DNA of 64,000 nt from Siphonodentalium dalli. Its lineage: Eukaryota; Mollusca; Scaphopoda; Gadilida; Siphonodentaliidae. The notes under the pieces were generated by a model. The model saw only the letters and a program-made list of their open reading frames with translations, searched no databases and had not been told where the DNA came from. Positions 22,807 to 40,173 of the stretch are shown in pieces. Location: assembly GCA_032622095.1 (NCBI GenBank), contig CP136061.1, positions 22,508,991 through 22,572,990 on the forward strand, in the 5' to 3' direction. A program made the position numbers and the translations under genes. How positions within the stretch are numbered: the first letter of the stretch is position 1; the number at the start of each line of letters is the position of its first letter.

Positions 22807-22812
22807 GGTGTA
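22807..22812. repeat. 6-bp target-site duplication (GGTGTA), left
   Basis: GGTGTA directly precedes the Polinton terminus AGTAGTAATGG. The same six bases follow the right terminus at 40,168-40,173. Polintons are known to make 6-bp duplications. Confidence 0.95.
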
Positions 22813-24135: not shown

Positions 24136-24580
24136 CGTTGTAATTCTCTTTGACTCGCTGTGACCACATCAGAGTCCACTCTGCATCGAATTTTTTGCGG
24201 TTGAGCTCCAAACTGTTTCTCAGATGATCCCACATAAGGTATGCTTCGAACTTCTCCTTGCAGTGTGGGTTTAACTCCATCAGCTTCGGGAACCATCTTT
24301 CCATAACATTGTATATGTCAATTTTAATCAGCGCTAAGTCGATAAACTGGTTTGTCCAATCATCAGTTGTAGAGAACAAACACAGAACATGTTCACGTTG
24401 ACTAGGATGTTCTATTTTACATCCTTCACAGTTTGCTGACACTTCCTTGCGAATAATTTCTTGTAGTTCTTCAATCGTAGCGTTGTTGAGTGTGTCCAAG
24501 ATCAGTTTTAATCTCGGAGCAACGTGTTGTGAACGTCGGTATTCTTCATAGTAGTTCCATAGCTGTGTTGTGAACTCCAT
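24122..24580 (-). CDS. Polinton protein of unknown function with CxxC and HPSQ motifs
   Basis: 152 residues, not assigned to a known function. Residues 51-67 hold ANCEGCKIEHPSQREHVLC, a C-x2-C ... H ... H-x2-C arrangement that could bind zinc. The rest is predicted helical with many aromatics (WNYYEEY, ERWFPKL, AEWTLMW). It starts one base after the capsid gene stop and overlaps the protease start, so it is probably expressed late together with them. I recall similar small Cys/His proteins in other Polintons, but this cannot be checked here. Confidence 0.7.
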   Translation of the reverse strand: MEFTTQLWNYYEEYRRSQHVAPRLKLILDTLNNATIEELQEIIRKEVSANCEGCKIEHPSQREHVLCLFSTTDDWTNQFIDLALIKIDIYNVMERWFPKLMELNPHCKEKFEAYLMWDHLRNSLELNRKKFDAEWTLMWSQRVKENYNDADS

Positions 24581-24581
24581 C

Positions 24582-25886: not shown

Positions 25887-25888
25887 GA

Positions 25889-26263
25889 TTAATCAAAAAT
25901 ATCAAGAGCTCGACTGCTAGGATGATTTTTCGACTGACTTTTTCGGCGTTTGACAGCTGAATGATTCATTTTTGAAGTCGCTACTCTTTTTCTAGGTTTT
26001 TTTCTCGAGTTCAAAATTTGATTTTTAGCTTGTGTGCCAAAAGATTTTAAAGCTTTTTTACCTTCAGACATCAACGCTTCTTTCGGACTTTTACCTTGAT
26101 TAATAATTTCATCTGCAACACCAAAAGTGTGTTTTTTCGCAAGTTGTAAAGCTGTCCGACCAAGCGGTTTTAGAAATGGTATAGCAGATCTCATAACTGA
26201 TTTGAAAATTGAACCAATACCATTACCATATTGCCGTGGTACGCCTCTATACACGGGGAACAT
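25889..26263 (-). CDS. small basic virion protein, adenovirus pVI/pX-like
   Basis: 124 residues, rich in Lys and Arg in the C-terminal half (RKKPRKR, KRRKSQSK). The N-terminus has PRQYGNGIGSIFKSVMRSA followed by an amphipathic stretch (IPFLKPLGRTALQLAKK). The layout (short leader, Gly-type cleavage site, amphipathic helix, basic tail) is that of adenovirus pVI or pX and of small proteins next to Polinton capsid genes. A cut at QYGN|G would free the amphipathic segment. Expected roles are membrane disruption at entry and DNA binding in the virion; both are inference. Confidence 0.75.
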   Translation of the reverse strand: MFPVYRGVPRQYGNGIGSIFKSVMRSAIPFLKPLGRTALQLAKKHTFGVADEIINQGKSPKEALMSEGKKALKSFGTQAKNQILNSRKKPRKRVATSKMNHSAVKRRKSQSKNHPSSRALDIFD

Positions 26264-26268
26264 TGTTT

Positions 26269-27120
26269 TTAGAACTCCTCTCGTTTTCTGAAATGTAGCT
26301 TCACCAAAGACTTACCACCGATAAACTGAATTGATTTTCCTGTGTCGCCACTTATATTTACACTAATTTTGTCAAAGTATGACTTTGAAACTGGAACATA
26401 ATGTAAATTTAAAAATTCATGTTTTACATGTAATCCGTCGATATCTCTTTTACTTCTGAAAGAAACAACTCGTAAAATTTGTACTTCAACATTTCCAACA
26501 AATGTGTAATCGGCAATATCAGAATAAACAAACATTAGATTATGACCAACATTCAAATCTACACCAAACGGAAATCTATTATTTGAATAAAAATCTTCAG
26601 AAGCGTTTTCAGTTTTGTAACCCAACTTGTGCAAAAGACATTGTGGTAATTCAATTCCTAGTTTTGTGTTACTTAAACTCTTGCGAATAATTTTCACACG
26701 TTTTGTACCTTTTGAGTACCCGATGTGAAATCCGTATTCGTTTTGCATTGCTTCTCCAAGTGTTTCATCAATTACATCTTGCATTGTATCAACTAAATCT
26801 GTCGCAGAGGTATACGAACCATTTTGTATCTGTATTTCAAGTGCATGAACGCCATCAGGTCTCTTAAATATCTTTTCTTCAAAACGATTTTGAAGAACAG
26901 ACAGTAATATTGCATCAGTTGTAATCAAATTGAATTTACACGAATCCCCTGTAACATTGTATGTTTCTGAAGGTGTTATCAGTTCGGCTAATGCAACTTC
27001 CCATTTTTCTTTATCAATTTGAACTGGTTTTGGTAATTGTACAGTAAAACAACATTGAGTATTGTTTGGATACATTACCATCGAACTGTCGCTCGGAATT
27101 GTAATGTAGAAAGGATTCAT
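26269..27120 (-). CDS. mCP: minor capsid (penton-like) protein, Polinton mCP
   Basis: 283 residues. The N-terminus FYITIPSDSSMVMYPNNT, followed by FTVQLPKPV and KWEVALAELITP, is the signature of Polinton penton-like single-jelly-roll proteins. The middle shows a GYKTE...FGVDLNVG and FVYSDI pattern also usual in the family. The C-terminus is basic (HFRKREEF). It would form pentamers at the capsid vertices. The upstream membrane protein gene overlaps its start by 4 bp (ATGA). Function is by family pattern and neighbourhood. Confidence 0.9.
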   Translation of the reverse strand: MNPFYITIPSDSSMVMYPNNTQCCFTVQLPKPVQIDKEKWEVALAELITPSETYNVTGDSCKFNLITTDAILLSVLQNRFEEKIFKRPDGVHALEIQIQNGSYTSATDLVDTMQDVIDETLGEAMQNEYGFHIGYSKGTKRVKIIRKSLSNTKLGIELPQCLLHKLGYKTENASEDFYSNNRFPFGVDLNVGHNLMFVYSDIADYTFVGNVEVQILRVVSFRSKRDIDGLHVKHEFLNLHYVPVSKSYFDKISVNISGDTGKSIQFIGGKSLVKLHFRKREEF

Positions 27121-27380
27121 ACTTTCAAAATTTCTGCCGACTGATTTTTCAAATATTTCAAACGCGGTGTTGGTAAAATGTACCCCAAAGAACTACTGAG
27201 TAAAATTAACCACAGTTCGTTATTTTCACTTTGTAAACTTAAATGAACAATTGCTGTAGCGATTATACCAACAATTATAATAATTTGTGTAAAATATGTT
27301 ACTTGATTTTTTGCAATTTTTTCTCCACAGATTTGAAATTGTGATGGAGCATCGAGACCAACTGAACCATTTTGAGACAT
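27117..27380 (-). CDS. small membrane protein with two hydrophobic segments
   Basis: 87 residues from the ATG at 27,380. The frame is open further upstream inside the integrase gene, but MSQNGSVGLDAPSQFQ is a typical soluble N-terminus. Two hydrophobic segments lie at about residues 28-48 (FTQIIIIVGIIATAIVHLSL) and 55-66 (LWLILLSSSLGYI), followed by LPTPRLKYLKN. Small two-segment membrane proteins ending in LPSP or LPTP motifs are, from memory, common next to Polinton penton genes. It could act at virion membranes or cell exit. The stop overlaps the penton start (ATGA). Confidence 0.75.
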   Translation of the reverse strand: MSQNGSVGLDAPSQFQICGEKIAKNQVTYFTQIIIIVGIIATAIVHLSLQSENNELWLILLSSSLGYILPTPRLKYLKNQSAEILKV

Positions 27381-27390
27381 GTTAAAAGTT

Positions 27391-28485
27391 TTATACCAAA
27401 TTTGTGGCAGGTATCCAACTGTCAAATTTTTTAGGATAACCAGCCCAATGAACTTTAATTTCTCTAACTGATTTACCAGCAACTTTTCTTGAACGTTTAC
27501 CAACAACTGATTCAATTTCGTAAACTTTATTATCTTTTATATGTTGAATTTCTTTACCATAAAATGATCCTGCGATGTTTTCACCATCTAAATCTACTAA
27601 TTTGTAAGTTAATGGTGTACTTTTACAAACTCTACTAATTTTGAAAATTTCTTTTGTCCAATTTGGAAGATATCCTTTATCAAAAGTTCTCTTTGTTTTA
27701 TTTATTCTAACAAAATCTCCAACTTTCAACATCTTATCTTTTTTCGTTTTTAACTTTCCATAAAGATTTCTGGAAACTTCAATTTCATTTTCTCGAGTTA
27801 CTAAAACTGGTGCCATCTTAATACTTCTATGAAAACTTTTGTTGTAAGAATTCACAAAATCGTGCAAAACATCAACGTATTTCAAAGTTTGATTATGTGT
27901 AAAATATTTCCACATCTTTGTTTTCAATGTCCGTTGAAAACGTTCAACTATACTTGCTTTTGTCTCTGGATTCTCTGTTGTGAAAAAATGAATTTTCTTA
28001 GATTTCAAAAATTGTAAAAATAATTTATTTTTGAATTCTGAACCTTTGTCAGATTGAAATGAAGCTGGTTTTCGTTTTGATGATTTTAGAATTTTCTGAA
28101 ATGTTTTAACTAAAGTTTTACCAGTTTTATCTTTAATTTTTTCAACCCATGCAAATTTTGAGAACACATCAATAACACAAAGTAAATATCTGTAATTGTC
28201 ATTGTGCTTTTGCAAAGTTTGCAAATCTGCCAGATCAGCTTGCCACTGAATATCAATTCCTGCAACAATAGTTTTACGTCTGCGAAATTTCCGAACAATT
28301 GGTTTGTGCAAAGTATATGTTTTTTGCCATTGTAACCATTTTTTAACATCTGAAAGTTTAATTTTGTTATTTGTTTCTTTTGCATTTTTAAAAAGTTGAT
28401 TTGCTCCACTGAAACCACCAACTTCTTTTGGATTGTAGTAAATTTCAGTTAGAAGTTTGTCAAATTTTATGTAAGTGAGGACCAT
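27391..28485 (-). CDS. INT: retroviral-type integrase with chromodomain (Polinton INT)
   Basis: 364 residues. The N-terminal part (LTEIYYNPKEVGGFSG, TYTLHKPIVRKF) is characteristic of Polinton integrases. The DDE core is intact: Asp84 (WQADL), Asp146 (FQSDKGSEF) and Glu181 (VERFQ), with 34 residues between the last two. A C-terminal chromodomain (about 320-364) reads YEIESVVGKR, EIKVHWAGYP and FDSWIPATNL. It would insert the element with 6-bp staggered joining, matching the target duplication seen. The chromodomain may steer it to marked chromatin (inference). The gene overlaps the end of the upstream gene by 19 bp. Confidence 0.95.
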   Translation of the reverse strand: MVLTYIKFDKLLTEIYYNPKEVGGFSGANQLFKNAKETNNKIKLSDVKKWLQWQKTYTLHKPIVRKFRRRKTIVAGIDIQWQADLADLQTLQKHNDNYRYLLCVIDVFSKFAWVEKIKDKTGKTLVKTFQKILKSSKRKPASFQSDKGSEFKNKLFLQFLKSKKIHFFTTENPETKASIVERFQRTLKTKMWKYFTHNQTLKYVDVLHDFVNSYNKSFHRSIKMAPVLVTRENEIEVSRNLYGKLKTKKDKMLKVGDFVRINKTKRTFDKGYLPNWTKEIFKISRVCKSTPLTYKLVDLDGENIAGSFYGKEIQHIKDNKVYEIESVVGKRSRKVAGKSVREIKVHWAGYPKKFDSWIPATNLV

Positions 28486-29174
28486 CCTTTCAAAATAGTT
28501 TTTCTGGTTTCTGGTGTTAAAATATCAACTGAACGTTTTCTTGACTTGCCACTGATAGGAGTTGCATGTGGTGTATGAAACTCATCACCAGTGTGACCTT
28601 TTAAATGTCTTTGCATCCACAGCCATCGATCCCTGTTACCTACATAATCTTGTGGTATATTAAGTTCCCCCAATCCACGTAGGAATGTTTCATAACCAAC
28701 TGGGTTAAAACCTTTTCGGTGACGAACAACATCGTTTATCAAATCAATTATATTTGATCCAGTAACTGTTTCTGTTCCATAAATTAATTGTCCACGATCA
28801 TCCCATCTAAGTTTAGGATTAGTTGACAACAATGATAAAATTTGTTGTGCTTTACCACGAAATTTAGATGGCACACTTTCCAATATATGGTCACTCATTT
28901 TCCCAAAGTTTTCAGATAACTTTTGTTCAGGTAATCTGAATTTTGAATTTAAAGATTTTTGTGAAGTTTTCAATTTGTACAAATTTTCTCCAAATAACTG
29001 TGACTTTTCTGATTCAGAAATATTTTTATCATAAACTGATTTCAATTCTTTGTAAGAATCTGAAACATTTGAAATTGCAGGATCAGGAGGTAATTGAGGT
29101 TTATTCATTTCTGACATTTCCCATTGTTTGAAATCTTCCAACATTCTGAATGGTACAATAACCATTTTCTTCAT
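28467..29174 (-). CDS. conserved Polinton protein of unknown function (LRWDDRGQLIYG)
   Basis: 235 residues. Conserved-looking features are the N-terminus MVIVPFRMLEDF, a central SKFRGKAQQILSLL and LRWDDRGQLIYG, then GSNIIDLINDVVRHRKG with NPVGYETFLRGL. The C-terminus is basic (GKSRKRSVD). From memory, similar proteins with WDxxGxLxY and IDLI motifs occur in many Polintons and in animal genome sets as unnamed proteins; I know of no proven role. It lies between the virion-type genes and the integrase. Confidence 0.75.
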   Translation of the reverse strand: MKKMVIVPFRMLEDFKQWEMSEMNKPQLPPDPAISNVSDSYKELKSVYDKNISESEKSQLFGENLYKLKTSQKSLNSKFRLPEQKLSENFGKMSDHILESVPSKFRGKAQQILSLLSTNPKLRWDDRGQLIYGTETVTGSNIIDLINDVVRHRKGFNPVGYETFLRGLGELNIPQDYVGNRDRWLWMQRHLKGHTGDEFHTPHATPISGKSRKRSVDILTPETRKTILKGWSSLT

Positions 29175-29194
29175 ATTTATTTGAGATTTAGCTT

Positions 29195-29557
29195 TTACAA
29201 AATATTTTTAACAACTGCACCTAATGTTTTGCTAATCAATGGAGCAAGAAATAATAATGGTAAAAAGCCACCTTTTTGATTCAAAATTTTCTTCTTTTGT
29301 TGCAAAGGTTTGTTCTTGTCTGCAAGATATCTGATATGTTTACGCTTCGAATGTAACTTGCGGTTCTGAGCTTCATTCAGTTTTACATTACCTTTTAAAA
29401 GATTTTGACAACATTCTGAAATGCAATCCATCACTTGTTTCGGAGCTTCGTTGATCATTTTCTTTTTATATGCAGATGGAACTTTACTCATTGCAACAAT
29501 CAACTCACCATATTTTTTTATCAGCGGTGCTTTCCGGCTCTTAGTTTTTGAAGGCAT
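29195..29557 (-). CDS. basic protein with Gly-Gly site and hydrophobic tail, virion candidate
   Basis: 120 residues from the ATG at 29,557; the frame extends two codons upstream only through a GTG. The first 90 residues are very basic (KTKSRKAPLIKKY, KRKHIRYLADK). Then comes NQKGG and a hydrophobic end (FLPLLFLAPLISKTLGAVV). A cleavage after QKGG by the adenain-like protease would release the tail. The design resembles Polinton and adintovirus pVI or pX relatives. The function is inferred from architecture only. Confidence 0.7.
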   Translation of the reverse strand: MPSKTKSRKAPLIKKYGELIVAMSKVPSAYKKKMINEAPKQVMDCISECCQNLLKGNVKLNEAQNRKLHSKRKHIRYLADKNKPLQQKKKILNQKGGFLPLLFLAPLISKTLGAVVKNIL

Positions 29558-29613
29558 CTTCACAGTCTAAGTAGTTGTCTCAAAATGAGCAGAAAAATTA
29601 TATGTTTCATCTT

Positions 29614-30201
29614 TTATCTTTTCGGATTGAACCATTCTAAAGCTTCGAATGCAGATTTCGATGCATCAGACAACGGCATAAATTTTGAAAATTCAAGATC
29701 AATAACTGGTTTTTTTTGTAACGGTTGATGTTGAGGGTTCTGCTGAGAAGGTATAGGTGTAAATTTAGAATGTTGATTTTGTTGAGTTTGCATCGGTGTA
29801 AACTTTGAATGATTTAGAGAAAGCTTTGTTTTACGTTTAGATTCTTTTTGATTACCTCTTTGTTGTGTTTGCTTCCGAGTAATCTTTGAACGTTTTGGAG
29901 AAACCTTTGATTTACTTTTAGATTGTCTACCAGTTTGTTCAAATGAATTTTTCAAAAGACTTCTAATTAAAACTCCTCCAAGAAACCCACTACCACCTCG
30001 TTGTAAAATTAATTTGCGTTTTGTTTCCATATCAGTTGATCGATCAGAGATTTTTTTAAGAACATTTTTATTTCTCTGAAAAAACTTTTTTGTCTGTGAT
30101 GGTAATTTCCAATCATTTTCAAGAAATAATTCAGCTGCAAAAGTGAAGAAATTTATAATTTGTGACAGTTCATCACGACTAAACATCTCGGTGGACGACA
30201 T
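29614..30201 (-). CDS. basic repeat protein with Gly-Gly site, virion candidate
   Basis: 195 residues from the ATG at 30,201 (MSSTEMFSRDE). A TATA sequence (TATAAATTC, 30,231-30,240) lies about 35 bp upstream on the same strand, which favours this start over the open extension to 30,270 that overlaps the ATPase gene. Helical N-terminus, then LILQRGGSGFLGG with a hydrophobic stretch, then a Lys, Ser and Gln-rich tail. The tail has three HSKFTP- or FSKFMP-type repeats (HSKFTPM, HSKFTPI, FSKFMPL). It ends EALEWFNPKR. QRGG|S is a possible protease site. Confidence 0.7.
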   Translation of the reverse strand: MSSTEMFSRDELSQIINFFTFAAELFLENDWKLPSQTKKFFQRNKNVLKKISDRSTDMETKRKLILQRGGSGFLGGVLIRSLLKNSFEQTGRQSKSKSKVSPKRSKITRKQTQQRGNQKESKRKTKLSLNHSKFTPMQTQQNQHSKFTPIPSQQNPQHQPLQKKPVIDLEFSKFMPLSDASKSAFEALEWFNPKR

Positions 30202-30230
30202 GGTTCTAAAATGAAAAAAATAACAACAAC

Positions 30231-30240
30231 TGAATTTATA
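30231..30240 (-). promoter_or_regulatory. TATA box for the gene at 29,614-30,201
   Basis: Minus-strand TATAAATTC about 35 bp before the ATG at 30,201. It lies at the very end of the ATPase coding region. Confidence 0.5.
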
Positions 30241-30886
30241 CTTTTGAATATATGACAGGACCTCGGTCATTAGCTGTCAACCATTTATGGAAAATATCAG
30301 TTCTAATTCGCAAATAATTTTCTGTTCTAGGATGAAAATCTACTAAAATATATCCATGATTTATTGAAGTTGCATCTTCGTATGCTTGTTTCAAATGATT
30401 GGTTTGCATTTGATGAGCCAAAACTTTTATTTGATTTTTATCTCGAACGCTTTGAAATAAAACCATGTAGTGTGCATTCAAACTTATAGTTCTGCTACTT
30501 TTTGATTTTTGGAACATGTTTTGAGTAATGTAAATTATTGAAGCATTTCGATGATGACCTTTTCTAGTAAACCAAAGCATTATTTTGTCTTCATCTTGTT
30601 CCCCCATCATGTCATCGAAAACAACAAGATGAGGAAATGATTTATCTGATACAATTTCCTCATCATCGTCTGGAATACCATCGATAAACTTAACGTTATC
30701 AATTTCTTTTATACGATTGTATGTGTCTTGCCATTCTTTGTAACACCAAACTATTTTCTTTGGTGGTGTTTGGAATAAATCGTGTTTAAATTCAATAACT
30801 TTTTTAACAAATTCTGTTTTACCTGATCCACTAGGTCCGCTGATAAAGAAATTACACGGATGTTGGAAAAGTAAAGATTCTTCCAT
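30236..30886 (-). CDS. ATP: FtsK/HerA-type DNA-packaging ATPase (Polinton ATP)
   Basis: 216 residues. Walker A is GPSGSGKT at 17-24, Walker B is HLVVFDDMM at about 86-94, and a sensor-like YITQNMF sits at 119-125. These and the length fit the Polinton and adintovirus packaging ATPase (A32-like). It would pump the genome into the capsid. The C-terminus NDRGPVIYSKV is charged and ordinary. Nothing is missing. The next gene upstream starts after a 33-bp gap. Confidence 0.93.
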   Translation of the reverse strand: MEESLLFQHPCNFFISGPSGSGKTEFVKKVIEFKHDLFQTPPKKIVWCYKEWQDTYNRIKEIDNVKFIDGIPDDDEEIVSDKSFPHLVVFDDMMGEQDEDKIMLWFTRKGHHRNASIIYITQNMFQKSKSSRTISLNAHYMVLFQSVRDKNQIKVLAHQMQTNHLKQAYEDATSINHGYILVDFHPRTENYLRIRTDIFHKWLTANDRGPVIYSKV

Positions 30887-30919
30887 GTTGTCACTTTGAT
30901 GTCTAATCAGAGAGTGAAC

Positions 30920-31570
30920 TTAACGACGTGTGAATTTAGTTTTTAAACCGAAATCTCCAAAGCTGTAAATATTTCCATACATTTCAATAATCCAATCATC
31001 ATAGTCTTCTATTCTTCTGTGCTTTGTTCTGTAAATAAAAAAATCATCCCCCAAAATGTTTTTAATTTTTGCATATGTTGACATTTTTTTTGTTAACAAA
31101 TACCCATAGATCCTAGGAACTGATTCAAAAGTTCCCCCATCAAGAGGTAAATGATCATCATACTTTGTATAATGAATATAGTCATGTTCATCAAAAGTTC
31201 CTAAATCTATATCTAAATGGTGTTGATCAGCACCAAATGTCCAAAAATCAGATATTTTTTCAATGAGAAAAAATGTTTTGAATTTAATAAATGATTCAAT
31301 ATATTTTTGAGAGAAATGAGAAGATATACTTGACTCAAGATAGGCCAATCTCTGTAAACATTCGCCGACATCACAGCATCGTAGTATTGCTTTCTTTTCT
31401 CTTTCAAACCAGACTTCTTGTAATTCCTTCTTTATCTCTGGAATAAGCGTTGACTGTGCCACCAAATATCCATAAATCTTCTCAGCAATTTCTGGAGGTA
31501 CTACTCCTGCCAACATCTTGACATGAAATGACTCAACATCTCCATCCGTATGGGTATGTATGAATACCAT
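30920..31570 (-). CDS. unknown Polinton protein between ATPase and polymerase
   Basis: 216 residues from the ATG at 31,570. That start overlaps the end of the polymerase gene by 38 bp in another frame. An ATG at 31,516, after the polymerase stop, would give 198 residues (MLAGVVPPEIAEKIYGYL). No family recognised. It is rich in acidic and aromatic residues with no membrane segment. A pair of YGYLV/YGYLL phrases (residues about 33 and 156) and a His/Asp cluster (GADQHHLDIDLGTFDEHDYIH) stand out. It could be a replication accessory factor by position; that is a guess. Confidence 0.65.
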   Translation of the reverse strand: MVFIHTHTDGDVESFHVKMLAGVVPPEIAEKIYGYLVAQSTLIPEIKKELQEVWFEREKKAILRCCDVGECLQRLAYLESSISSHFSQKYIESFIKFKTFFLIEKISDFWTFGADQHHLDIDLGTFDEHDYIHYTKYDDHLPLDGGTFESVPRIYGYLLTKKMSTYAKIKNILGDDFFIYRTKHRRIEDYDDWIIEMYGNIYSFGDFGLKTKFTRR

Positions 31571-34500
31571 TGACGAGTTTTCGTTTTGTGTACACCGATC
31601 TGAAAGTTTTGGTTTGACACTCACTAATCAATTGATGGTTCTTTTGTCTTTTAATTCTGGAAGGATACTCAACAACAGTTTTGAAATTTTCACGATCATT
31701 AACACATTGTACCATTGTTTCAAAATTAACTTTTTGACTTGTGCTGTAATCAAGAGTGATACCTTTTACCTTACATTTGGTGTATCTTACCCCATCTTTG
31801 ATGTATTCATATCCGTAGTTCTTTGGCCCAAGTCCAACAAATTTGACAATCTTTGCATCTGGATGTTCGTCGCTCCATTTCCCCAATCTTCCTTCGATAG
31901 TTTTGATGTTCTTCTTTGATGGATCACTGACATACATACAGCTGTCTGTATCAAAATACAGCACTCTATCTCCAAGTTTTTCTAAAACTTTATACAATTG
32001 TAATCTTGCATACGCTGTAACAAAAGAAGCAACAACAACATTTGCTGAATGATGAGGTTCAATATTATCTAAGATGTCAACATAATTTACCAGAATGAAT
32101 TTGTCACCATCAAGAAGTGTAACATTTTGAACAATTATATTGTTACTAGTAAGCAATTCAAAATAACGTGATGGTTTATCCACATACTCTGTTTTTGACA
32201 TAAGATTTCTTTGTGCATTCTTACCCCATATACAATTAATCATAATTTTAGATATTTGACGTTTTCCTGGATTCTTCTCGATGTTCTCCAAATTTATACC
32301 CTCAGCTGCATAATAATCCTGTACAAACTTTTGTTTCTGTTCTTCTGTCTCAACACCAAATGGATAACCACTACATTCCTGTTTGATCTTTAGATGTTTA
32401 TCGATATAGGATTTGTATATTTCATCTGTCCAATCTGTCCAATGCCAAATTTGGTACACATCAAGTATTTTGTAGCCAACATCCATTGCTTTGAATAATT
32501 CTGGCGTGGTCCACACTCCGGTTATAGCTCGATCTTCTTCTGAATGGTTACATGCCTCGTTCTCATTGATGGCACAAGTGTTGCACAGAGTAAAAACCAT
32601 TTTCTTGTTACAATGAATCGGTAGAACTGGAATATACAATTTCGATGATGGTAAAATTGTACATTTAACAAGCCCCGCATAGTCTCTAATGTGTTCTTGA
32701 TCGATCTGCTCTTGGCTCAAAATTTCTGGATGTCCAACAGGGTAGAATTTATATTTGTTGCAAAATGGATACAACGAACACACATCGATGAACTTGATTT
32801 CTTTTGTGGAATCTTGATCAATTTCCTCGTACAATTTGATGGCATTTGTACGTCCACCAAACAATGCTTCTCTTGGCAAAATAGGGTCTCGATGTTTGTA
32901 GAAAGATTCCATTTGTTGTTTGAATTTCACATCCGATTTCATTCTTTCGTCGATCTGATGCTCCCAAATTGATTCAACTCTGTAACCAAGACTTTCCAGC
33001 TCATCTTTCTTCTGTTGGGTTCTTGTATATAATTCTTCCATGGTGAGCATCGTATAGGGATTCTTGTATTGTCTGTTGTTGTAACATTTTGGACATCCAT
33101 GAAACAGACATCCATTCATCTCAAAAACTGTTCTTGTGGCTTCCTCATATCCATCGACGTAGTGTCCACCAATCTTGATTTCTCCTCCATTCAAAGCATG
33201 CTTGATTGTTATCATACGTGACAATGATATATGTTGAAGCCAACGTATCGCTTTCATGGAATAGTTTTTAGCACATGGGTATCCACCATCTGGAATGATT
33301 CCAATTGTTTTCTCTGGCATTGAATTCTTCCTCCATGCCAAATTGCAAACTTGTGCCAATGTTATTGACTCAATGAACGGGTCAATCTGTTCTGTTTCCA
33401 ATATGTATTTCCTGAATTTTCCACATCCACGGCGAAGAATATCCACGTCTGATTTGCAGTACTTCTCTATCTCTTCTTGGAAGTTGAATATCGCATAATT
33501 TTCTATTTTCTCATTGTACCATTCAAAGAATTTCTCTCGATTTTCCACGCTCATCATATCTGGTTTGTAGTAATCACAAGCCAAGTAAGGTCCAATGTAA
33601 TTTTGAAACTTTGGTGAATTCGCCCAATGTGGAAAGTGTCCTTTTGCCATCTCATTCAGCTGAAAAGTTTGTGGAAATTTTGAAAGCGGCATCATCAGAA
33701 AACTCAGAGAATCAATAACTTTCACGCTGTTGCATTTTAAACTGAGAATTTTGTTTCCATTCATGATCAGTTCTGGTTTATGAATTCCACTTTGTATGAG
33801 TGCTTGAAGTAGAAACTGTGCATCGTATCCCTGAGCATTATGTGCTATTGCAACACATCCTTTGTGATCTTGATGGAATAACCAGTTTGTGAAGTCTGTT
33901 AAAACATTGTCACCCTTGAATACAAATTCTCTGGAATCCGGTCCGCATGTTTCACATTTTTCTTCGATTGGTTTGCACATGCAATCTCCACAAGCGGTAT
34001 GTGCAACACAGAAGTTTGGAATATGAACACCTGTGTCTTGTCTGCATTCAAAGTCAAAGAATACATATGGAATCTTTGCAGGTTTCTTTTCCGGTGATTC
34101 ATATTTTGGAATGTAGCACCTGTGATCTGCTTCAACGATTTCTTTGCAATGTTTGCATTTCTTCAACCCCGCACATATATGTCTGTTTGATTTATTGATG
34201 AGAAATTCTTCATCACAAATGTTGCATAGTTGAACCAAATCACATATTTTTCTTTTCTGTTTTCCTTCCGTCTTCAAATGGTTGTCGAAACAAGATTTAC
34301 TTCTGAATGATCGTCGACACGTTCTACACTTCACCAAATTTGTGAAATTACACTGTGTCAATGACCAGCATGCACAAACAAATCTGCATCGATGATCGCC
34401 ACGACTTTTGAATCCAATGTCACAGAATTCGCAGTAGTAGCTGGTGCCTAGAAATCCTTTGATTGATGTTATGGTGTCGAAGTGATTGTTGTTGTAGTAG

Positions 34501-35606
34501 ATGTGTACACATTTGCTCTCCGAACACATTTCTGCAGGTTCAAATAGAAATCCAGCGCCAGCAAATTCATTGTGAATTTTCACAACATATTCTGGATACA
34601 ATATTTCTTGAATCTTGTGGAACTCATTGATACTGCAAACTGTATCGTGTGGAATACCAGCACGGTTGAGTAGATTTTTTGCTGCATCTGTTTGTGCTGT
34701 GTATATTGATTGTCTTATTCTTTTCCATTTCTTTGACCAGCACGCAGATCCATCACTATCTGCCTTACACATTCCGACGACAATAGATCTTGCCATACAC
34801 ATAACATCATCAGCATTTTCAATCCGGACAATACTTCTTTTCACTTTTGTAAGCTTGTTCTTGTCTGCAAATGGTCCATAATGTAGTGAGTGTCGTGTAC
34901 CACCTTCCGGAATATCTGTAACGAAGATTTCGAAATTGAGTGCACCGTCATGAATTGTAAAGTCTGCATTTGATTGAACCACATTTTGAATATTATCCAT
35001 GAGTGTCTCACCATTCAATTCACTGGCTTTTGTGAATGGAATGAAAATGTTCATATCAAGTCCTGGATGATTTATCGTAACTCTGATTCTTGTCTTCTCA
35101 TTTGCTGAACATTTCTGTTTCAATTCTTCTGTCAACTTCTCAAATATCTCTGGAATGTTTTCGATTGGATCTGTAAATTTCTCGAATTTCACACCAAATT
35201 GTCGTGATGCTGATTTAAATTTTCTGGAAAATTTCTCCGAGTTCAGCTCCAATTTGAAATATTTTGTTGGATTGAACACAACACGCTCTCTAGCCAGACT
35301 TCTCTTTCTCTTCCCACCAATTTCTCTATTCTGTCTTCGACCGCGTCCAATCTGACCATCACTAGAACTTTCTTCACTTTCGCCTCCATTAGTTTCCATA
35401 TCGCTCTCTTCACTTTCTGCCTCATCAGTTTCCATATCGCTCTCTTCACTTTCTGCCTCATCAGTTTCCATATCGCTCTCTTCACTTTCTGCCTCATCAG
35501 TTTCCATTTCGCTCTCTTCAATAACTGCAGGCCTTGGTCTTTTTCTAACAATATCTTCTTCGCTGGCGGAGTCGTCTGAAACAGGTCTTTTGATTCTCTT
35601 AAACAT
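31533..35606 (-). CDS. PolB: protein-primed type family B DNA polymerase (Polinton PolB)
   Basis: 1,357 residues. Exonuclease motifs: FDFE (517-520), AHNAQGYDAQF (588-598) and YCKSDVDIL (716-724). Polymerase motifs: DVCSLYP (941-947), KIMINCIWG (1120-1128) and YFDTDS (1217-1222). An extra MNGCLFHGCPKCY at 830-842 is usual in Polinton enzymes. A Cys/His-rich zinc-finger region fills about 391-500. The N-terminus has two basic nuclear-localisation-like clusters (KRIKRP, RKRPRP) and three 12-residue acidic repeats (ESDMETDEAESE, about 43-80). It would replicate the element from its TIRs. Residues 1-32 and the leader are duplicated in the divergent gene at 35,826 through a palindrome. Confidence 0.97.
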   Translation of the reverse strand: MFKRIKRPVSDDSASEEDIVRKRPRPAVIEESEMETDEAESEESDMETDEAESEESDMETDEAESEESDMETNGGESEESSSDGQIGRGRRQNREIGGKRKRSLARERVVFNPTKYFKLELNSEKFSRKFKSASRQFGVKFEKFTDPIENIPEIFEKLTEELKQKCSANEKTRIRVTINHPGLDMNIFIPFTKASELNGETLMDNIQNVVQSNADFTIHDGALNFEIFVTDIPEGGTRHSLHYGPFADKNKLTKVKRSIVRIENADDVMCMARSIVVGMCKADSDGSACWSKKWKRIRQSIYTAQTDAAKNLLNRAGIPHDTVCSINEFHKIQEILYPEYVVKIHNEFAGAGFLFEPAEMCSESKCVHIYYNNNHFDTITSIKGFLGTSYYCEFCDIGFKSRGDHRCRFVCACWSLTQCNFTNLVKCRTCRRSFRSKSCFDNHLKTEGKQKRKICDLVQLCNICDEEFLINKSNRHICAGLKKCKHCKEIVEADHRCYIPKYESPEKKPAKIPYVFFDFECRQDTGVHIPNFCVAHTACGDCMCKPIEEKCETCGPDSREFVFKGDNVLTDFTNWLFHQDHKGCVAIAHNAQGYDAQFLLQALIQSGIHKPELIMNGNKILSLKCNSVKVIDSLSFLMMPLSKFPQTFQLNEMAKGHFPHWANSPKFQNYIGPYLACDYYKPDMMSVENREKFFEWYNEKIENYAIFNFQEEIEKYCKSDVDILRRGCGKFRKYILETEQIDPFIESITLAQVCNLAWRKNSMPEKTIGIIPDGGYPCAKNYSMKAIRWLQHISLSRMITIKHALNGGEIKIGGHYVDGYEEATRTVFEMNGCLFHGCPKCYNNRQYKNPYTMLTMEELYTRTQQKKDELESLGYRVESIWEHQIDERMKSDVKFKQQMESFYKHRDPILPREALFGGRTNAIKLYEEIDQDSTKEIKFIDVCSLYPFCNKYKFYPVGHPEILSQEQIDQEHIRDYAGLVKCTILPSSKLYIPVLPIHCNKKMVFTLCNTCAINENEACNHSEEDRAITGVWTTPELFKAMDVGYKILDVYQIWHWTDWTDEIYKSYIDKHLKIKQECSGYPFGVETEEQKQKFVQDYYAAEGINLENIEKNPGKRQISKIMINCIWGKNAQRNLMSKTEYVDKPSRYFELLTSNNIIVQNVTLLDGDKFILVNYVDILDNIEPHHSANVVVASFVTAYARLQLYKVLEKLGDRVLYFDTDSCMYVSDPSKKNIKTIEGRLGKWSDEHPDAKIVKFVGLGPKNYGYEYIKDGVRYTKCKVKGITLDYSTSQKVNFETMVQCVNDRENFKTVVEYPSRIKRQKNHQLISECQTKTFRSVYTKRKLVNGIHTYPYGWRC
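35393..35515. repeat. 36-bp coding minisatellite in PolB, three copies
   Basis: Three direct copies of a 36-bp unit (TCATCAGTTTCCATATCGCT plus CTCTTCACTTTCTGCC on the plus strand) encode the acidic repeat of PolB. It begins where the palindrome arm ends. Confidence 0.9.
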
Positions 35607-35921
35607 TTTTGTCTTGAGTTTTTGTCAGCACAAAATATTGCGACTGGCTTCTTCGGAGTTGAAGTGTAAAGTGTATAATTACACAATTTTACACTTGCTT
35701 TTATAGCATTTTTCATCGTGACTGCTATAAAAGCAGGTGTTAAAATTGTGTAATTATACACTTTACACTTCAACTCCGAAGAAGCCAGTCGCAATATTTT
35801 TTGCTGACAAAAACTCAAGACAAAAATGTTTAAGAGAATCAAAAGACCTGTTTCAGACGACTCCGCCAGCGAAGAAGATATTGTTAGAAAAAGACCAAGG
35901 CCTGCAGTTATTGAAGAGAGC
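35511..35921. promoter_or_regulatory. palindromic divergent promoter with duplicated leader and first 32 codons
   Basis: The arms 35,511-35,708 and 35,722-35,921 are inverted copies with only a few differences, separated by about 14 bp. Each arm holds an outward TATA box (TATAAAAGC, at about 35,698-35,705 minus and 35,726-35,733 plus). It continues with a leader of about 100 bp (ACACTTTACACTTCAACTCC ...) and the first 32 codons of PolB or of the zinc-knuckle gene, identical at the DNA level. This makes a symmetric two-way promoter. The transcripts of the two genes would share their 5' ends and could in principle pair or regulate together. Confidence 0.93.
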
Positions 35922-36401
35922 TATATTGAGCTGCATAAAGAAGAATCTACACTACTACAGACTAGAAAAATTCAAGATAATCTTGTCGAATTGAGACAGA
36001 TCTCTACTGATTTGTTTAAATTTTGTAACAAAATGCAATGGCAAGAGAAAAAAGAGAAAAACAAAGCTGATAAAAATTGGAAACCACCATATGGTTACTG
36101 TTACAAATGCGGACAAGACTCCCATTGGTCCTTCCAATGTAAAACAGATTTCGACGACAAAAAAAATGTGAAAACTATACAAAAAAGTCTACAAGCAGTA
36201 ACAATACAAGAACAAAATGCAGTTATCAAAACTGAAGAGATGTCTACAACATCAGATGTTTTCAAACAACCCCGACCTGTTGATCCTACGAATGATTCAC
36301 AGAACAAATCTGAAGATAAGCATCCAGATTTTGAAAATTCCAAGAAAACTTCCAAGAAAAAGAAGCTGAGACAATTCTACATTCCAAAAACAGATAAATG
36401 A
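35826..36401 (+). CDS. zinc-knuckle protein sharing the PolB N-terminus
   Basis: 191 residues. Residues 1-32 equal those of PolB exactly and carry two basic nuclear-localisation-like clusters. After the join the sequence is unrelated: a helical stretch (ESTLLQTRKIQDNLVELRQ), then a CCHC knuckle CYKCGQDSHWSFQC (C92, C95, H100, C105). A polar, Lys- and Ser-rich tail ends with KKTSKKKKLRQFYIPKTDK. CCHC knuckles bind single-stranded nucleic acid; C-terminal FYxP-type peptides may bind partners. It could bring a PolB-like localisation signal to an accessory replication factor (inference). It ends in a normal AATAAA (36,433), not in a histone-type stem-loop. Confidence 0.85.
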   Translation: MFKRIKRPVSDDSASEEDIVRKRPRPAVIEESYIELHKEESTLLQTRKIQDNLVELRQISTDLFKFCNKMQWQEKKEKNKADKNWKPPYGYCYKCGQDSHWSFQCKTDFDDKKNVKTIQKSLQAVTIQEQNAVIKTEEMSTTSDVFKQPRPVDPTNDSQNKSEDKHPDFENSKKTSKKKKLRQFYIPKTDK

Positions 36402-36432
36402 ATCGATACAAACATTTGAAAATTATATTGTG

Positions 36433-36438
36433 AATAAA
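36433..36438 (+). terminator. poly(A) signal AATAAA for the zinc-knuckle gene
   Basis: AATAAA 32 bp after the stop codon of the gene at 35,826-36,401. Confidence 0.6.
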
Positions 36439-36511
36439 TTATGAATTGAACAATCGTGTTTTGTTTTGTTTTTTCAGCTATGAAAGAGTAACCTTTTTGG
36501 GGAATGTGGGT

Positions 36512-36527
36512 GGCCCTGAAAAGGGCC
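36512..36527 (-). terminator. histone-type 3' stem-loop of the gene at 36,546-36,896
   Basis: On the minus strand the stop codon is followed within 20 bp by AACGGCCCTTTTCAGGGCC. This has a 6-bp stem and 4-nt loop identical to the metazoan histone consensus GGYYCUUUUCAGRGCC. It is followed by ACCCACATTCCCC and AAAAAGGTTACTC, a purine-rich stretch where the histone downstream element would lie. Confidence 0.85.
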
Positions 36528-36545
36528 GTTTTTCTTTTCCAGAAT

Positions 36546-36896
36546 TCATAAAAATTCTGCCAAATCAGGATATATCCCGTTGGGATTAATTGTCACAGAC
36601 CAAGTAGGGTTTGATCTGTGCGCCGCAGCAGCCTGAGCGAAGCTGTCAATTGCTGCATTGCACAGATCTTTCTTCGAGATCTGTGACAAGATCTCCCCGA
36701 GATCAAGATTGCTTGGTTCTTGATCACATACTTCAGCCGATGGTCGTCGCCGAGCCAGAAAATCTGTTAACATCTGTTTCTGCACCACCTTTTGTTCAGG
36801 AGAATCCTGCCATTTCCTATAGGTTCTGATTTTCGTCTCCTCTGACGAATCTCTCTTCCTCCATAGCTTCTTGAAAAATTTCTTTAGAGACGGCAT
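36546..36896 (-). CDS. accessory protein A1, basic amphipathic N-terminus
   Basis: 116 residues, no family recognised. The N-terminus MPSLKKFFKKLWRKRD is basic and amphipathic. The middle is charged (ARRRPSAEVCDQEPSNLDLG). Then comes a helix ISKKDLCNAAIDSFAQAAAAH, and the end is NPTWSVTINPNGIYPDLAEFL. It is transcribed divergently from the gene at 37,512 from a 553-bp shared promoter. A TATA box (TATAAAAATA, 36,927-36,936) and a CTTCATTCATT cap-like site precede the ATG. Its mRNA would end in a histone-type stem-loop. It is not a histone. Confidence 0.75.
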   Translation of the reverse strand: MPSLKKFFKKLWRKRDSSEETKIRTYRKWQDSPEQKVVQKQMLTDFLARRRPSAEVCDQEPSNLDLGEILSQISKKDLCNAAIDSFAQAAAAHRSNPTWSVTINPNGIYPDLAEFL

Positions 36897-36922
36897 AATG
36901 AATGAAGTTCACTGAAAAAGTG

Positions 36923-37475
36923 AAAATATTTTTATACATTTGACACGGGCGGTAGAGAAATCACATGTCGCATTGACGTTAAAATTGACAAATGTTTCCT
37001 GGCGTTGTGTTTTTTCAGAGACGGATCAGCATTCATATTTTTCTTGATCATTATTGCATAGCGATCAAACAAATGTTTTTTATTTCGTTAGATCATTATC
37101 TATTATATGGTACACATGATTGATATATTTGTTACCTCGTTAGGAAAATATGGAATGTTTTTCTAGTTTTGTTTTTGGAGATGTACATATTTTATACATA
37201 AAACTGAACACAAGAAAACATACTGAACATTTTTCTTCATCATTACAATCGATAACTTTACTTGGTCATCGTTTATGAACGAAGATGAATTCATATGTTA
37301 AAACATCTTAATTAATTGCATATACTATCATGAATTTAATCTATAACATATCGAAATAGTGAAAACTACAGATAATGCACTGTAAAGAAACACAACGTCA
37401 GGGAGCATTTGTCATTTTAACGTCAATGCGACATGTGCTTTCTCTACCGCCCGCGCAATCGTAATATATGTTCAA
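36923..37475. promoter_or_regulatory. bidirectional promoter module, copy 1
   Basis: This 553-bp block recurs almost unchanged at 38,533-39,085. Its ends are inverted copies of each other (about 36,946-37,012 and 37,388-37,453): CGGGCGGTAGAGAAATCACA, TGTCGCATTGACGTTAAAAT, TGACAAATG. The leftward TATA is TATAAAAATA at 36,927-36,936; the rightward one is TAATATATG near 37,462. It separates divergent genes A1 and B1. Confidence 0.9.
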
Positions 37476-37511
37476 ACACGGCCGTGAACAATTTTTATTC
37501 TGCATTCAAAG

Positions 37512-37700
37512 ATGTCCGAAATCCCCGAACCGTTGATGTCTATACTAAGAGGAACGATAGGGCTATCACCCCAGATAATGCGGGCCGGACACGCAAAAGA
37601 AGTAACCGCCAGTGCAAAACTGGTTATGCAAATATGCAAAAAACAACAGCGTTGGAACAAAAGCAAAAGTCTCAAAAGAAAATCGTGGCGTGAACTTTGA
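37512..37700 (+). CDS. accessory protein B1, short basic protein
   Basis: 62 residues from the ATG in GCATTCAAAGATG. The equivalent gene B2 at 39,118 starts in the same context (ACATTCAAAGATG). No family recognised. The C-terminal half is basic (KKQQRWNKSKSLKRKSW). A different frame (37,433-37,693) opens earlier inside the promoter arm. The same opening, MCFLYRP, occurs before B2, so it is promoter sequence and not the start. The gene is short compared with B2 and may be a remnant or a fast-evolving small protein. Confidence 0.5.
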   Translation: MSEIPEPLMSILRGTIGLSPQIMRAGHAKEVTASAKLVMQICKKQQRWNKSKSLKRKSWREL

Positions 37701-37713
37701 TGCCATACAAAAC

Positions 37714-37729
37714 GGCCCTTTTCAGGGCC
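37714..37729 (+). terminator. histone-type 3' stem-loop 1 of gene B1
   Basis: AACGGCCCTTTTCAGGGCCAAAAAC begins 13 bp after the stop codon. It is an exact 16-nt match to the histone stem-loop consensus. The 3' flank is A-rich rather than ACCA. Confidence 0.8.
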
Positions 37730-37741
37730 AAAAACAAAAAC

Positions 37742-37757
37742 GGTCCTTTTCAGGACC
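37742..37757 (+). terminator. histone-type 3' stem-loop 2 of gene B1
   Basis: AACGGTCCTTTTCAGGACCAACCA has a second stem-loop with a compensated pair (GGTCC with GGACC) and a good ACC-type flank. TTTTTTCAAAAAGAAAAACT follows, a purine-rich element also seen after gene B2. Confidence 0.82.
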
Positions 37758-37888
37758 AACCAATTTTTTCAAAAAGAAAAACTTTTAGCATTGCTTAAGA
37801 ACTAATAATGTTCTTTGTACCCTATGTTTTGTTTTGAAAAAATCACGCCACGAATAATTTAAAACAAAATATACTTGCAAATATTTGT

Positions 37889-37990
37889 TGTTGAATAAAA
37901 TATAAATTGAACAATCGTGTTTTTGATTTTTTCAGCAATGAAAGAGTAACCTTTTGGGAAATGTGTGTGGCCCTGAAAAGGGCCGTTTTA
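37889..37990. repeat. 3'-flank block, unit 2 of the duplicated accessory pair
   Basis: Copy of 36,429-36,536: TTGAATAAAATATAAATTGA ... CAATCGTGTTTT ... TTTTTTCAGCAATGAAAGAG ... GGCCCTGAAAAGGGCC. With the promoter copies it shows that the whole divergent pair was duplicated head to tail. Confidence 0.88.
37969..37984 (-). terminator. histone-type 3' stem-loop of the gene at 38,007-38,495
   Basis: Minus-strand AAACGGCCCTTTTCAGGGCC, then ACACACATTTCCC and AAAAGGTTACTCTTTCA. It lies about 22 bp after the stop codon. The downstream purine-rich word is the same as after gene A1. Confidence 0.85.
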
Positions 37991-38006
37991 AAATTATCAT
38001 CTGACT

Positions 38007-38495
38007 TTAACATCGTTTTGTGTTTTTCTTATATCTTGACATATCTTTCCCATGAGAACCAATAGCTTTTGCGAATTCATCACTTTTCTCTGTATCTTTA
38101 GATTCTTTACAAGGAAGACGAAATCTGACTTTTGTCTCAGTAGAAGGCTTCATGATACTTTTAGGTTCTTTTTCTTTCGCAGCCAATATTTTTTCTTTTT
38201 TGATCTGTTTCTGTTCTTTCGATTTCTGAACATCATGAACCCTGATTGGTATATCTATCTCTTCTGCAACGAAACGAAGATTCACTTTTACTTCTTGATG
38301 CGTTACTTGTGTTTTCACGTCAATATCCCTGCGAAGACATCTCAGTTCATCTAAAATCGCTTTTAAAATGAGTGTATCTCCACCTATAGTCATTGTCGTA
38401 TTAGCTTGGCCTGTTGACTGTGGTGCCGCATATGTATTCTGTACAACAGGATTACTGTATATCTCACTCTGAAGAAATTCTGTTAACGGATCCAT
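38007..38495 (-). CDS. accessory protein A2, coiled-coil and Lys-rich tail
   Basis: 162 residues from the ATG at 38,495 (MDPLTEFLQSEIYSN). The frame is open to 38,549, but those codons overlap the TATA box TATAAAAATA (38,537-38,546), so the inner ATG is preferred. The start context CTATCAAAGATG resembles that of the B genes. A helical stretch (TLILKAILDELRCLRRDI) precedes a Lys- and Glu-rich part (KEQKQIKKEKILAAKEKEPK) and a basic end. No family recognised and no similarity to A1 is obvious, although their promoter and 3' end are copies. Confidence 0.75.
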   Translation of the reverse strand: MDPLTEFLQSEIYSNPVVQNTYAAPQSTGQANTTMTIGGDTLILKAILDELRCLRRDIDVKTQVTHQEVKVNLRFVAEEIDIPIRVHDVQKSKEQKQIKKEKILAAKEKEPKSIMKPSTETKVRFRLPCKESKDTEKSDEFAKAIGSHGKDMSRYKKNTKRC

Positions 38496-38532
38496 CTTTG
38501 ATAGCAATGCAATGTAACGTTGATCAAATTCT

Positions 38533-39085
38533 AAAATATTTTTATACATTTGACACGGGCGTCAATGAAATCACATGTCGCATTGACGTTAAAATTGACA
38601 AATGTTTCCTGGCATTGTGTTTTTTCAGAGACGGATCAGCATTCATATTTTTCTTGATCATTATTGCATAGCGATCAAACAAATGTTTTTTATTTCGTTA
38701 GATCATTATCTATTATTTGGTACACATGATTGATATATTTGTTACCTCGTTAGGAAAATATGGAATGTTTTTCTAGTTTTGTTTTTGGAGATGTACATAT
38801 TTTATACATAAAACTGAACACAAGAAAACATACTGAACATTTTTCTTCATCATTACAATTGATAACTTTACTTGGTCATCGTTTATGAACGAAGATGAAT
38901 TCATATGTTAAAATATCTTAATTAATTGCATATACTATCATGAATTTAATCTATATCATATCGAAATGGTGAAACTAACAGATAATGCACTGAAAAGAAA
39001 CACAACGTCAGGGAGCATTTGTCATTTTAACGTCAAAGTATTATGTGCTTTCTCTACCGCCCGCACAATCGTAATATATGTTCAA
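38533..39085. promoter_or_regulatory. bidirectional promoter module, copy 2
   Basis: Nearly identical to 36,923-37,475. Its inverted arms are at about 38,556-38,622 and 38,998-39,064. The left arm has lost the GGTAGAG word (CGGGCGTCAATGAAATC) and the right arm has AAAGTATTATG in place of AATGCGACATG. TATA boxes are at 38,537-38,546 (minus) and near 39,072 (plus). Confidence 0.9.
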
Positions 39086-39117
39086 GACGGATCTTCAGAC
39101 TTATTCTACATTCAAAG

Positions 39118-39585
39118 ATGACTGCTGTAAACATAACAGATCTTGACGAGATAATGGTACAGGGGGTATACTGTAAAGCAGTGTGCGGCGGCGAAGAAAT
39201 ATCTCTGTTTTGGAGGGCACTCAGCGTTGCGGTTTACGGGACGACCGATGGATGGATGGTTCTGAGAGATGCGGCAGTTGACCTGTACTACGCAGAGAGT
39301 GACGAACTTGGTGCGTCGGCACAAGATTTACGGCGCACACCACTTTTGGCTGAATCAAGATTGATGGTTGAATTAGCGGCGACTGTTATACAGCGACCTA
39401 TCGTCATGTTTGATGCTACCAGAGGCGGCTACAAATCAACACCAAGATTCAAGTCATCAATAACTCTAGTGTGGATCCCACACGTTTGCCACGAGCATTA
39501 TTGTGAATGCGAAATATGGATGAGGCGAGGAGACAAATCAATTGAAGTTTTGGCGAACAAAGAAGTTCAATGTGGCGGATTCTAA
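39118..39585 (+). CDS. accessory protein B2, OTU-protease-like fold, probably inactive
   Basis: 155 residues from the ATG in ACATTCAAAGATG; the open frame upstream (MCFLYRP...) is promoter arm. GGEEISLFWRALSVAVYG resembles the OTU catalytic block (GDGNCLFRAIS..LYG), but the nucleophile position is Ser and a Trp is inserted. WMVLRDAAVDLYYAE fits the following OTU helix. QRPIVMFDATRGG fits the core strand, and HEHYCECEIW resembles the His-containing strand. OTU enzymes remove ubiquitin; loss of the Cys suggests a binding role or divergence. The resemblance is by eye and moderate. The mRNA would end in a histone-type stem-loop. Confidence 0.65.
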   Translation: MTAVNITDLDEIMVQGVYCKAVCGGEEISLFWRALSVAVYGTTDGWMVLRDAAVDLYYAESDELGASAQDLRRTPLLAESRLMVELAATVIQRPIVMFDATRGGYKSTPRFKSSITLVWIPHVCHEHYCECEIWMRRGDKSIEVLANKEVQCGGF

Positions 39586-39604
39586 ACTATAACAAAAATA
39601 AAAC

Positions 39605-39620
39605 GGCCCTTTTCAGGGCC
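39605..39620 (+). terminator. histone-type 3' stem-loop of gene B2
   Basis: AAACGGCCCTTTTCAGGGCC starts about 20 bp after the stop. It is followed by ACCAAATATT and CGAAAAGAAAAACTCTTG. The ACCA flank and purine-rich element match animal histone mRNA ends. An AATAAA overlaps just upstream (39,597), so both kinds of 3' end are possible. Confidence 0.87.
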
Positions 39621-39700
39621 ACCAAATATTCGAAAAGAAAAACTCTTGATTGCTAATTGATATTTTCCAAAGTGAGATTTTCCTTTTGAAAAAAAATAAT

Positions 39701-40167
39701 TCTAAGTCCATTTTCATTTTTTCCGATCAGAAATATCACATCAATGACAGGAATATCTATCCTCAGGGGGGAACTATGGCCCAGTACCCATCAGTGGGGG
39801 GCACTATGGCCCAGTACCCCCCAGTGGGGCACTATGGCCCAGTACCCCCCAGTGGGGGGCACTATGGCCCAGTACCCCCCAGTGGGGGGCACTATGGCCC
39901 AGTATCGAATACTGGACCATAGATCGTCCAGTATTCGATACTGGGCCATAGTGCCCCCACTGGGGGGGCACTATGGCCCAGTATCGAATACTGGACGATC
40001 TATGGTCCAGTATTCGATACTGGGCCATAGTGCCCCCCACTGGGGGGTACTGGGCCATAGTGCCCCCCACTGGGGGGTACTGGGCCATAGTGCCCCCCAC
40101 TGGGGGGTACTGGGCCATAGTGCCCCCCACTGGGGGGTACTGGGCCATAGTGCCCCCCATTACTACT
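39701..40167. repeat. Polinton right terminal inverted repeat
   Basis: Inverted copy of 22,813-23,281, starting TCTAAGTCCATTTTC and ending CATTACTACT. It differs from the left TIR almost only in C/G run length (467 against 469 bp). Confidence 0.95.
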
Positions 40168-40173
40168 GGTGTA
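40168..40173. repeat. 6-bp target-site duplication (GGTGTA), right
   Basis: GGTGTA directly follows the terminus ACTACT and is identical to 22,807-22,812. Confidence 0.95.

Follow-up and report, generated by a model that had tools for sequence, protein, structure and literature searches.

The 64,000-nucleotide stretch of contig CP136061.1 of the scaphopod mollusc Siphonodentalium dalli analysed here (the window) contains a complete Polinton whose right end carries four accessory genes, A to D, followed by five 16-nt stem-loops of the type found at the 3′ ends of replication-dependent histone mRNAs (Table 1). A first-pass annotation made from the sequence alone had reported these stem-loops and proposed that the element has taken over S-phase-linked, poly(A)-independent mRNA processing. 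All five are present at the positions and on the strands it gave: the pattern GGYYCTTTTCAGRRCC returned five exact matches in the window, where 0.20 would be expected even with two mismatches allowed, and a first-order model puts the number of exact matches due to chance in the element at about 8e-5. Four of the loops read GGCCCTTTTCAGGGCC and one reads GGTCCTTTTCAGGACC, and folding of each of the five regions gives a 6-bp stem with a 4-nt loop.

The Rfam model of the histone 3′ stem-loop, RF00032 (gathering score 34 bits), is the only family that passes in a scan of the 64-kb window, and four of the five loops pass it. Scored with this model, the histone-type match claimed for the whole set holds for these four and falls short for the first loop of gene B, at 37714. 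That loop also lacks the histone-like flank ascribed to it, being followed by AAAAAC and an A-rich spacer that runs up to the second loop of the same gene. The functional loop of gene B is probably the one at 37742 rather than that at 37714.

Placement of the loops follows the genes. They stand within 300 nt of the stop codons of 4 of the 17 open reading frames (ORFs) of the element, all five in the sense orientation as the first-pass annotation had described, and the other 13 ORFs have no loop within 300 nt past the stop. Strand-specific 50-nt zones past the 17 stops make up 2.4% of the element. The distance from stop to loop, earlier put at 13-25 nt, fits four loops (18, 13, 22 and 19 nt) and is exceeded by the second loop of gene B, at 41 nt.

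Table 1 Features of the Polinton and its histone-type signals (positions in the window).
Feature	Position	Strand	Properties
Gene A stem-loop	36512..36527	-	RF00032 42.6 bits; 18 nt past stop
Gene B first stem-loop	37714..37729	+	RF00032 22.2 bits, below gathering score; 13 nt past stop; no histone-like flank
Gene B second stem-loop	37742..37757	+	RF00032 37.1 bits; 41 nt past stop; C-G pair replaced by U-A
Gene C stem-loop	37969..37984	-	RF00032 40.1 bits; 22 nt past stop
Gene D stem-loop	39605..39620	+	RF00032 41.8 bits; 19 nt past stop
Tail of gene A	36482..36511	-	CACATTCCCCAAAAAGGTTACTC; weaker H2B-tail match, 4/2000 shuffles as good
Tail of gene B after second loop	37758..37800	+	candidate downstream element CAAAAAGAAAAACTTTTAG
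Tail of gene C	37941..37968	-	CACATTTCCCAAAAGGTTACTC; weak H2B-tail match, 55/2000 shuffles as good
Tail of gene D	39621..39660	+	candidate downstream element GAAAAGAAAAACTCTTG
Accessory gene A	36546..36896	-	116 aa; no known family; dN/dS 0.13-0.52 wherever defined
Accessory gene B	37512..37700	+	62 aa; no known family; dN/dS 0.28-0.35 in the four copies where defined
Accessory gene C	38007..38495 (longer ORF from 38549)	-	162 aa; no known family; dN/dS 0.13-0.48
Accessory gene D	39121..39585 (longer ORF from 39043)	+	154 aa; no known family; dN/dS 0.31-0.52 wherever defined
Divergent promoter region, genes A/B	36923..37475		96.6% identical to 38533-39085 over 554 aligned columns
Divergent promoter region, second copy, genes C/D	38533..39085		repeat of 36923-37475
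Complete Polinton	22813..40167		17,355 bp; terminal inverted repeats, 6-bp duplication and core genes
DNA polymerase B (PolB)	31533..35606	-	Pfam PF03175, E 2.2e-38; no stem-loop
Retroviral-type integrase with chromodomain	27391..28485	-	Pfam rve PF00665, E 1.3e-12; Chromo, E 1.7e-5; no stem-loop
Zinc-knuckle gene (weak match, below Pfam cut-off)	35826..36401	+	convergent with gene A; AATAAA 32 nt past stop; no stem-loop

The host’s own histone genes carry the same signal: H4, H2B and H2A genes end in AAACGGCCCTTTTCAGGGCCACC, with the same 16-mer as the commonest Polinton loop and the same AACGG lead, so that this part of the flanks described earlier agrees with the host. Tails of this kind were counted in 25 fetched loci (L006-L030; H4 25, H2B 25, H2A 10), and in L006 and L008 the histone genes were read as well. 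Past the stem, the tail of the second loop of gene B aligns with the host H2B tail over 39 nt (score 48) and that of gene D over 38 columns with gaps (score 35), with none of 2000 shuffles as good in either case; for the tail of the first loop of gene B, 52/2000 shuffles were as good. A downstream element like that of host histone genes is thus found in two of the five tails. The purine-rich words which the first-pass annotation had placed where a U7-binding element is expected resemble the H2B tail strongly after the second loop of gene B and after gene D, and weakly after genes A and C. The signal is host-like in its loop and in two of its tails, a likeness that may stem from capture in this host, from capture elsewhere or from selection.

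Conservation was followed at two depths. The young sample took 20 of 97 capsid-scored copies, about every fifth, over an 800-bp stretch that holds three loops. Of these loops 59/60 are exact, with changes at 1/960 loop sites, 0/360 lead sites and 0/560 sites of the downstream element of gene B, as against 21/3000 in the middle noncoding part, 42/1988 in the promoter, 60/3721 in gene B and 23/3675 in gene C. The second sample consists of 11 more diverged stretches (L031-L041), found by their loops and about 87-99% identical in the longer blastn pieces: here the loops are 0.98-0.99 identical to those of the window, and the six preceding bases as well as the downstream element of gene B have an identity of 1.0. 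Wherever a copy had an alignable gene and loop (A 9, first loop of B 7, second loop of B 7, C 10, D 10), loop changes were compared with the number expected from the synonymous substitution rate (dS) of the adjoining gene, at 22 nt per loop. There were 6 changes against 65.6 expected for all loops and 5 against 38.6 with the discovery loops excluded, about eight times less change than at synonymous sites, although these counts give no formal probability because the copies share ancestry. Some Polinton copies have broken ORFs and have kept their loops.

The covariation alignment comprised 12 hand-picked rows (five window loops, four variants and three host loops), of which the host H2A row lacks the left flank and extends further right, with its stem columns in register. 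As these rows leave out three pair-breaking variants, one each from the first loop of gene B, gene C and gene D, the resulting 98.6% of paired positions is too favourable and was not used as evidence. One pair is changed on both sides, in the second loop of gene B, and represents a single event. On the sequence evidence, the stem-loops are genuine: they exceed chance expectation by far, keep to the ends of genes, resemble those of the host and are under constraint.

In keeping with the earlier remark that none of the proteins behind these signals is a histone, A to D have no histone match in Pfam at E values up to 10, and no family in Pfam or PHROGs. Protein D, the only one of the four compared with the PDB, had no match there. 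Its layout, read by eye, had suggested an OTU-like protein, an assignment without Pfam support and one that its single-sequence predicted fold is too poor to judge; the folds of D and C (mean predicted local distance difference test scores 42.8 and 46.5) were not used. The ratio of nonsynonymous to synonymous substitution rates (dN/dS) was taken from the copies in the 11 loop-found stretches, in which gene coverage varies and some copies have frameshifts or stops. In every comparison that defines it, dN/dS stays below 1 for A to D, which makes them look like real genes. Values for the zinc-knuckle gene and the PolB part were mixed (0.29-2.54) and came from few changes.

Genes A/B and C/D share a duplicated frame. 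Besides the promoter region, which in its A/B copy holds an inner inverted repeat (36946-37018 / 37380-37453, 90.7%), two pairs of tails show relationship: A with C (36416-36532 and 37875-37989, 86.7%) and B with D (37729-37795 and 39593-39654, 82%). The proteins A and C, and likewise B and D, gave no alignment; therefore either a frame of promoter and terminators was duplicated with unrelated ORFs inside it, or the ORFs have since been exchanged or have diverged beyond recognition. The tail module of A and C can be read both ways, with AATAAA and a GT-rich stretch after it on the plus strand (36433; 37894) and the histone-type loop on the minus strand.

Copies of the Polinton are spread over the host genome (2.23 Gb, nine contigs). 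A genome-wide Histone3 search was read from the 75 hits scored among 409,530 first-look candidates, and the window’s own loops were not among these 75. Sixty-three, 25 of them the fetched loci L006-L030, lie in blocks on C5 and C8, and all 12 outside these histone blocks, in 11 fetched stretches, sit in copies of this Polinton; the five best scores among the 75 belong to Polinton loops. Searching with the capsid gave 97 scored copies, the window’s included, from 2113 candidates: 97/97 have 99-100% amino-acid identity and 94 are without a stop, and the identity of all 97 points to a recent burst of this Polinton. No relatives were found in viral_contigs by capsid, PolB-part or integrase searches or by two patterns.

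The element itself is a Polinton, as the first-pass annotation had it, and by its sequence a real and complete one. Its terminal inverted repeats (TIRs; 22813-23289 and 39693-40167) are about 477 bp each and 98.7% identical over 479 aligned columns, and it is flanked by the 6-bp target-site duplication ggtgta (22807-22812 and 40168-40173). In addition to PolB and the integrase it encodes a packaging ATPase (PF04665, 35.1 bits, cut-off 22.8) and a candidate adenovirus-type cysteine protease (PF00770, E 5e-4, 20.2 bits, just below the cut-off of 21.3). An ORF of 434 aa at 24582-25886 has the position expected for the double jelly-roll major capsid protein; it matched nothing in Pfam and nothing meaningful in the PDB, and is called the putative capsid by its position only. 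From PolB the core genes run to the left, and the right end consists of the zinc-knuckle gene and genes A to D.

Several further repeats were observed in and next to the element. Between PolB and the zinc-knuckle gene, a 411-bp self-inverted repeat (35511-35921, 96.2%) forms a divergent promoter region, and the first 32 residues of the two proteins are identical (MFKRIKRPVSDD...). The acidic N-terminal part of PolB (35368-35520) contains in-frame 36-bp direct repeats, at which alignments to several other copies break. The terminal repeats (22822-23216 and 39766-40158) are composed of short direct and inverted units nested in one another (GGGGGGCACTATGGCCCAGTACC...) and are internally self-complementary. 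Directly outside the Polinton, at 42702-43608, stands a tandem array with steps of about 11 bp, its copies roughly 90-96% identical.

CPSF73 acts as the nuclease in the processing of histone pre-mRNA, which yields tail-less mRNAs whose abundance tracks S phase; to our knowledge, mRNAs that end in a stem-loop and carry no poly(A) are in animals almost confined to histone genes. We consider it probable that the Polinton loops represent a captured or mimicked histone 3′-processing signal that serves as a modular terminator on the four accessory genes, whose transcripts would be processed through it. Genes A to D would then be expressed from two copies of a cassette with a divergent promoter in the middle and a histone-type 3′-processing signal at each outer end. 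Most likely this signal was either captured from host replication-dependent histone genes or selected to resemble them, with H2B as the best fit. Host SLBP would bind the stem-loop of the transcript and the host U7 small nuclear ribonucleoprotein (snRNP) the downstream purine-rich word, and CPSF73 would cleave a few bases downstream of the stem. The likely product would be a short mRNA without poly(A), stable and translated mainly during the cell’s DNA replication, when a PolB element can replicate too, and such an element with convergent genes would gain both replication-matched timing and a compact terminator. The parts given here to SLBP and the U7 snRNP are those described for histone mRNA processing in PMC9756948.

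A number of observations weigh against this reading. The contrast between the loops and nearby noncoding DNA is modest in the young sample (1/960 against 22/4220) because those copies are young; among the 11 diverged stretches the neighbouring sequence is 0.90 to 1.0 identical, in places as conserved as the loops; and the comparison with dS is tempered by the shared ancestry noted above. The diverged copies contain eight variant loops, four with a C to T change that leaves a G-U pair in place and four with a broken pair, so loops in single copies do decay. The matches of the A and C tails to the H2B tail are the weak ones in Table 1. Absence of loops elsewhere in the genome cannot be inferred, because the 75 scored candidates omit the window’s own loops. 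A histone origin of the Polinton promoters found no support, as only scattered 10-mers are common with host loci L006 and L008, a comparison with no formal control.

The search for a host U7 snRNA counts on the same side. No match in the genome rose above the Rfam cut-off, and the Rfam U7 matches fetched (L042-L046), all below it, are read as chance. A U7 pattern search gave 201 matches against 91 in a backward control, and eight listed places were fetched. The most U7-like candidate (L076, C1:101.75 Mb) carries CUCUUUUGG ahead of AAUUUGUCUAG, which is followed by a short hairpin; its pairing extends to seven of eight tails, with a register that hardly varies, but is of a kind that the search pattern itself favours, and its pairing energies rank 0.13-0.61 among random stretches of the element, no better than random. 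The commonest listed match to the U7 pattern, TCTTTATGAAATTTGTCTTG (e.g. C1:7791193), imitates the U7 Sm-site pattern, and is probably a dispersed repeat because it is present at many places.

Three other explanations of the loops were weighed. The one we take most seriously, while still thinking it unlikely, is that they bind SLBP for translation, stability or timing, and that the mRNAs end at ordinary poly(A) sites or alternate between both kinds of end. Gene B is followed by an AATAAA at 194 nt from its stop and gene D by one at 12 nt, before its loop, so polyadenylated forms are possible and this too speaks against tail-less ends as the sole outcome; the stretch downstream of gene D is variable, with an identity of 0.90 among 10 copies; and a human H2A mRNA can be processed either way, according to PMC9756948. 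In genes A and C, however, neither AATAAA nor ATTAAA follows the stop within 300 nt, and the downstream element of gene B, unchanged in the young and diverged copies alike, also speaks against this explanation.

It is quite improbable that the loops are remnants of a captured histone 3′ end, without function and carried along as passengers of the cassette. Such remnants would suit the likeness of the tails to the host H2B tail and the unhistone-like flank at 37714, and with all scored capsid copies at 99-100% identity some of the conservation is simply youth; yet the loops show only about an eighth of the change that synonymous sites predict, five of them sit in sense after four genes, the second loop of gene B differs by a compensatory pair (if by one event), and loops persist in copies whose ORFs are broken. 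The slightest chance goes to hairpins that act as DNA or as protein-free terminators (a cruciform, a replication or a packaging signal), with histone likeness as convergence. The loops of A, B and C do lie between convergent genes, where a terminator would be useful, but the loop TTTC is non-palindromic, the lead is A-rich, two tails match host histone genes, and orientation follows the gene in 5/5. A histone-type processing signal on the accessory genes is the reading we prefer, and the first-pass interpretation as a whole is partly supported.

More tentatively, and with some doubt, we suggest that animal Polintons, or one lineage of them, use the histone 3′ end as a portable cassette for unrelated genes, so as to make tail-less, S-phase-tied mRNAs that sense host replication and dodge poly(A)-dependent control. 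If so, a mobile element would carry a non-histone user of the SLBP/U7 pathway, and the histone 3′-end pathway would be open to hijack by a virus-like element. This would also offer a handle on the cell-cycle timing of Polinton activity, and poly(A)-selected RNA-seq could miss Polinton accessory genes.

The first-pass annotation knew of no earlier report in Polintons, and our search of the literature on histone stem-loops or SLBP together with Polintons likewise found none of histone-type 3′ ends on Polinton/Maverick or adintovirus genes; this needs qualifying by a 2025 survey which counts, uncommented, six Rfam-type histone 3′ UTR stem-loops in a collection of polinton-like viruses and virophages (PMC12220804). 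The section of that survey in question gives no genes, positions, hosts or function, and may or may not concern the same phenomenon. Host SLBP has been described as aiding SARS-CoV-2 frameshifting (PMC12166091), which is alike in that a viral RNA interacts with host SLBP and differs in that it concerns ribosomal frameshifting, with no histone-type 3′ end. The element itself resembles Polinton/Maverick elements and adintoviruses in its PolB, RVE integrase, packaging ATPase, TIRs and 6-bp target duplication. Its signals resemble the metazoan replication-dependent histone mRNA 3′ end (RF00032) in the 16-nt stem-loop, the lead, the position behind the stop codon and, in two of the tails, the downstream element; they differ in that proteins A to D have no histone match, that gene B has two loops, and that processing at the Polinton signals is a prediction, and the stop-to-loop distance is 13-41 nt in the Polinton as compared with 29, 31 and 35 nt in three host histone tails.

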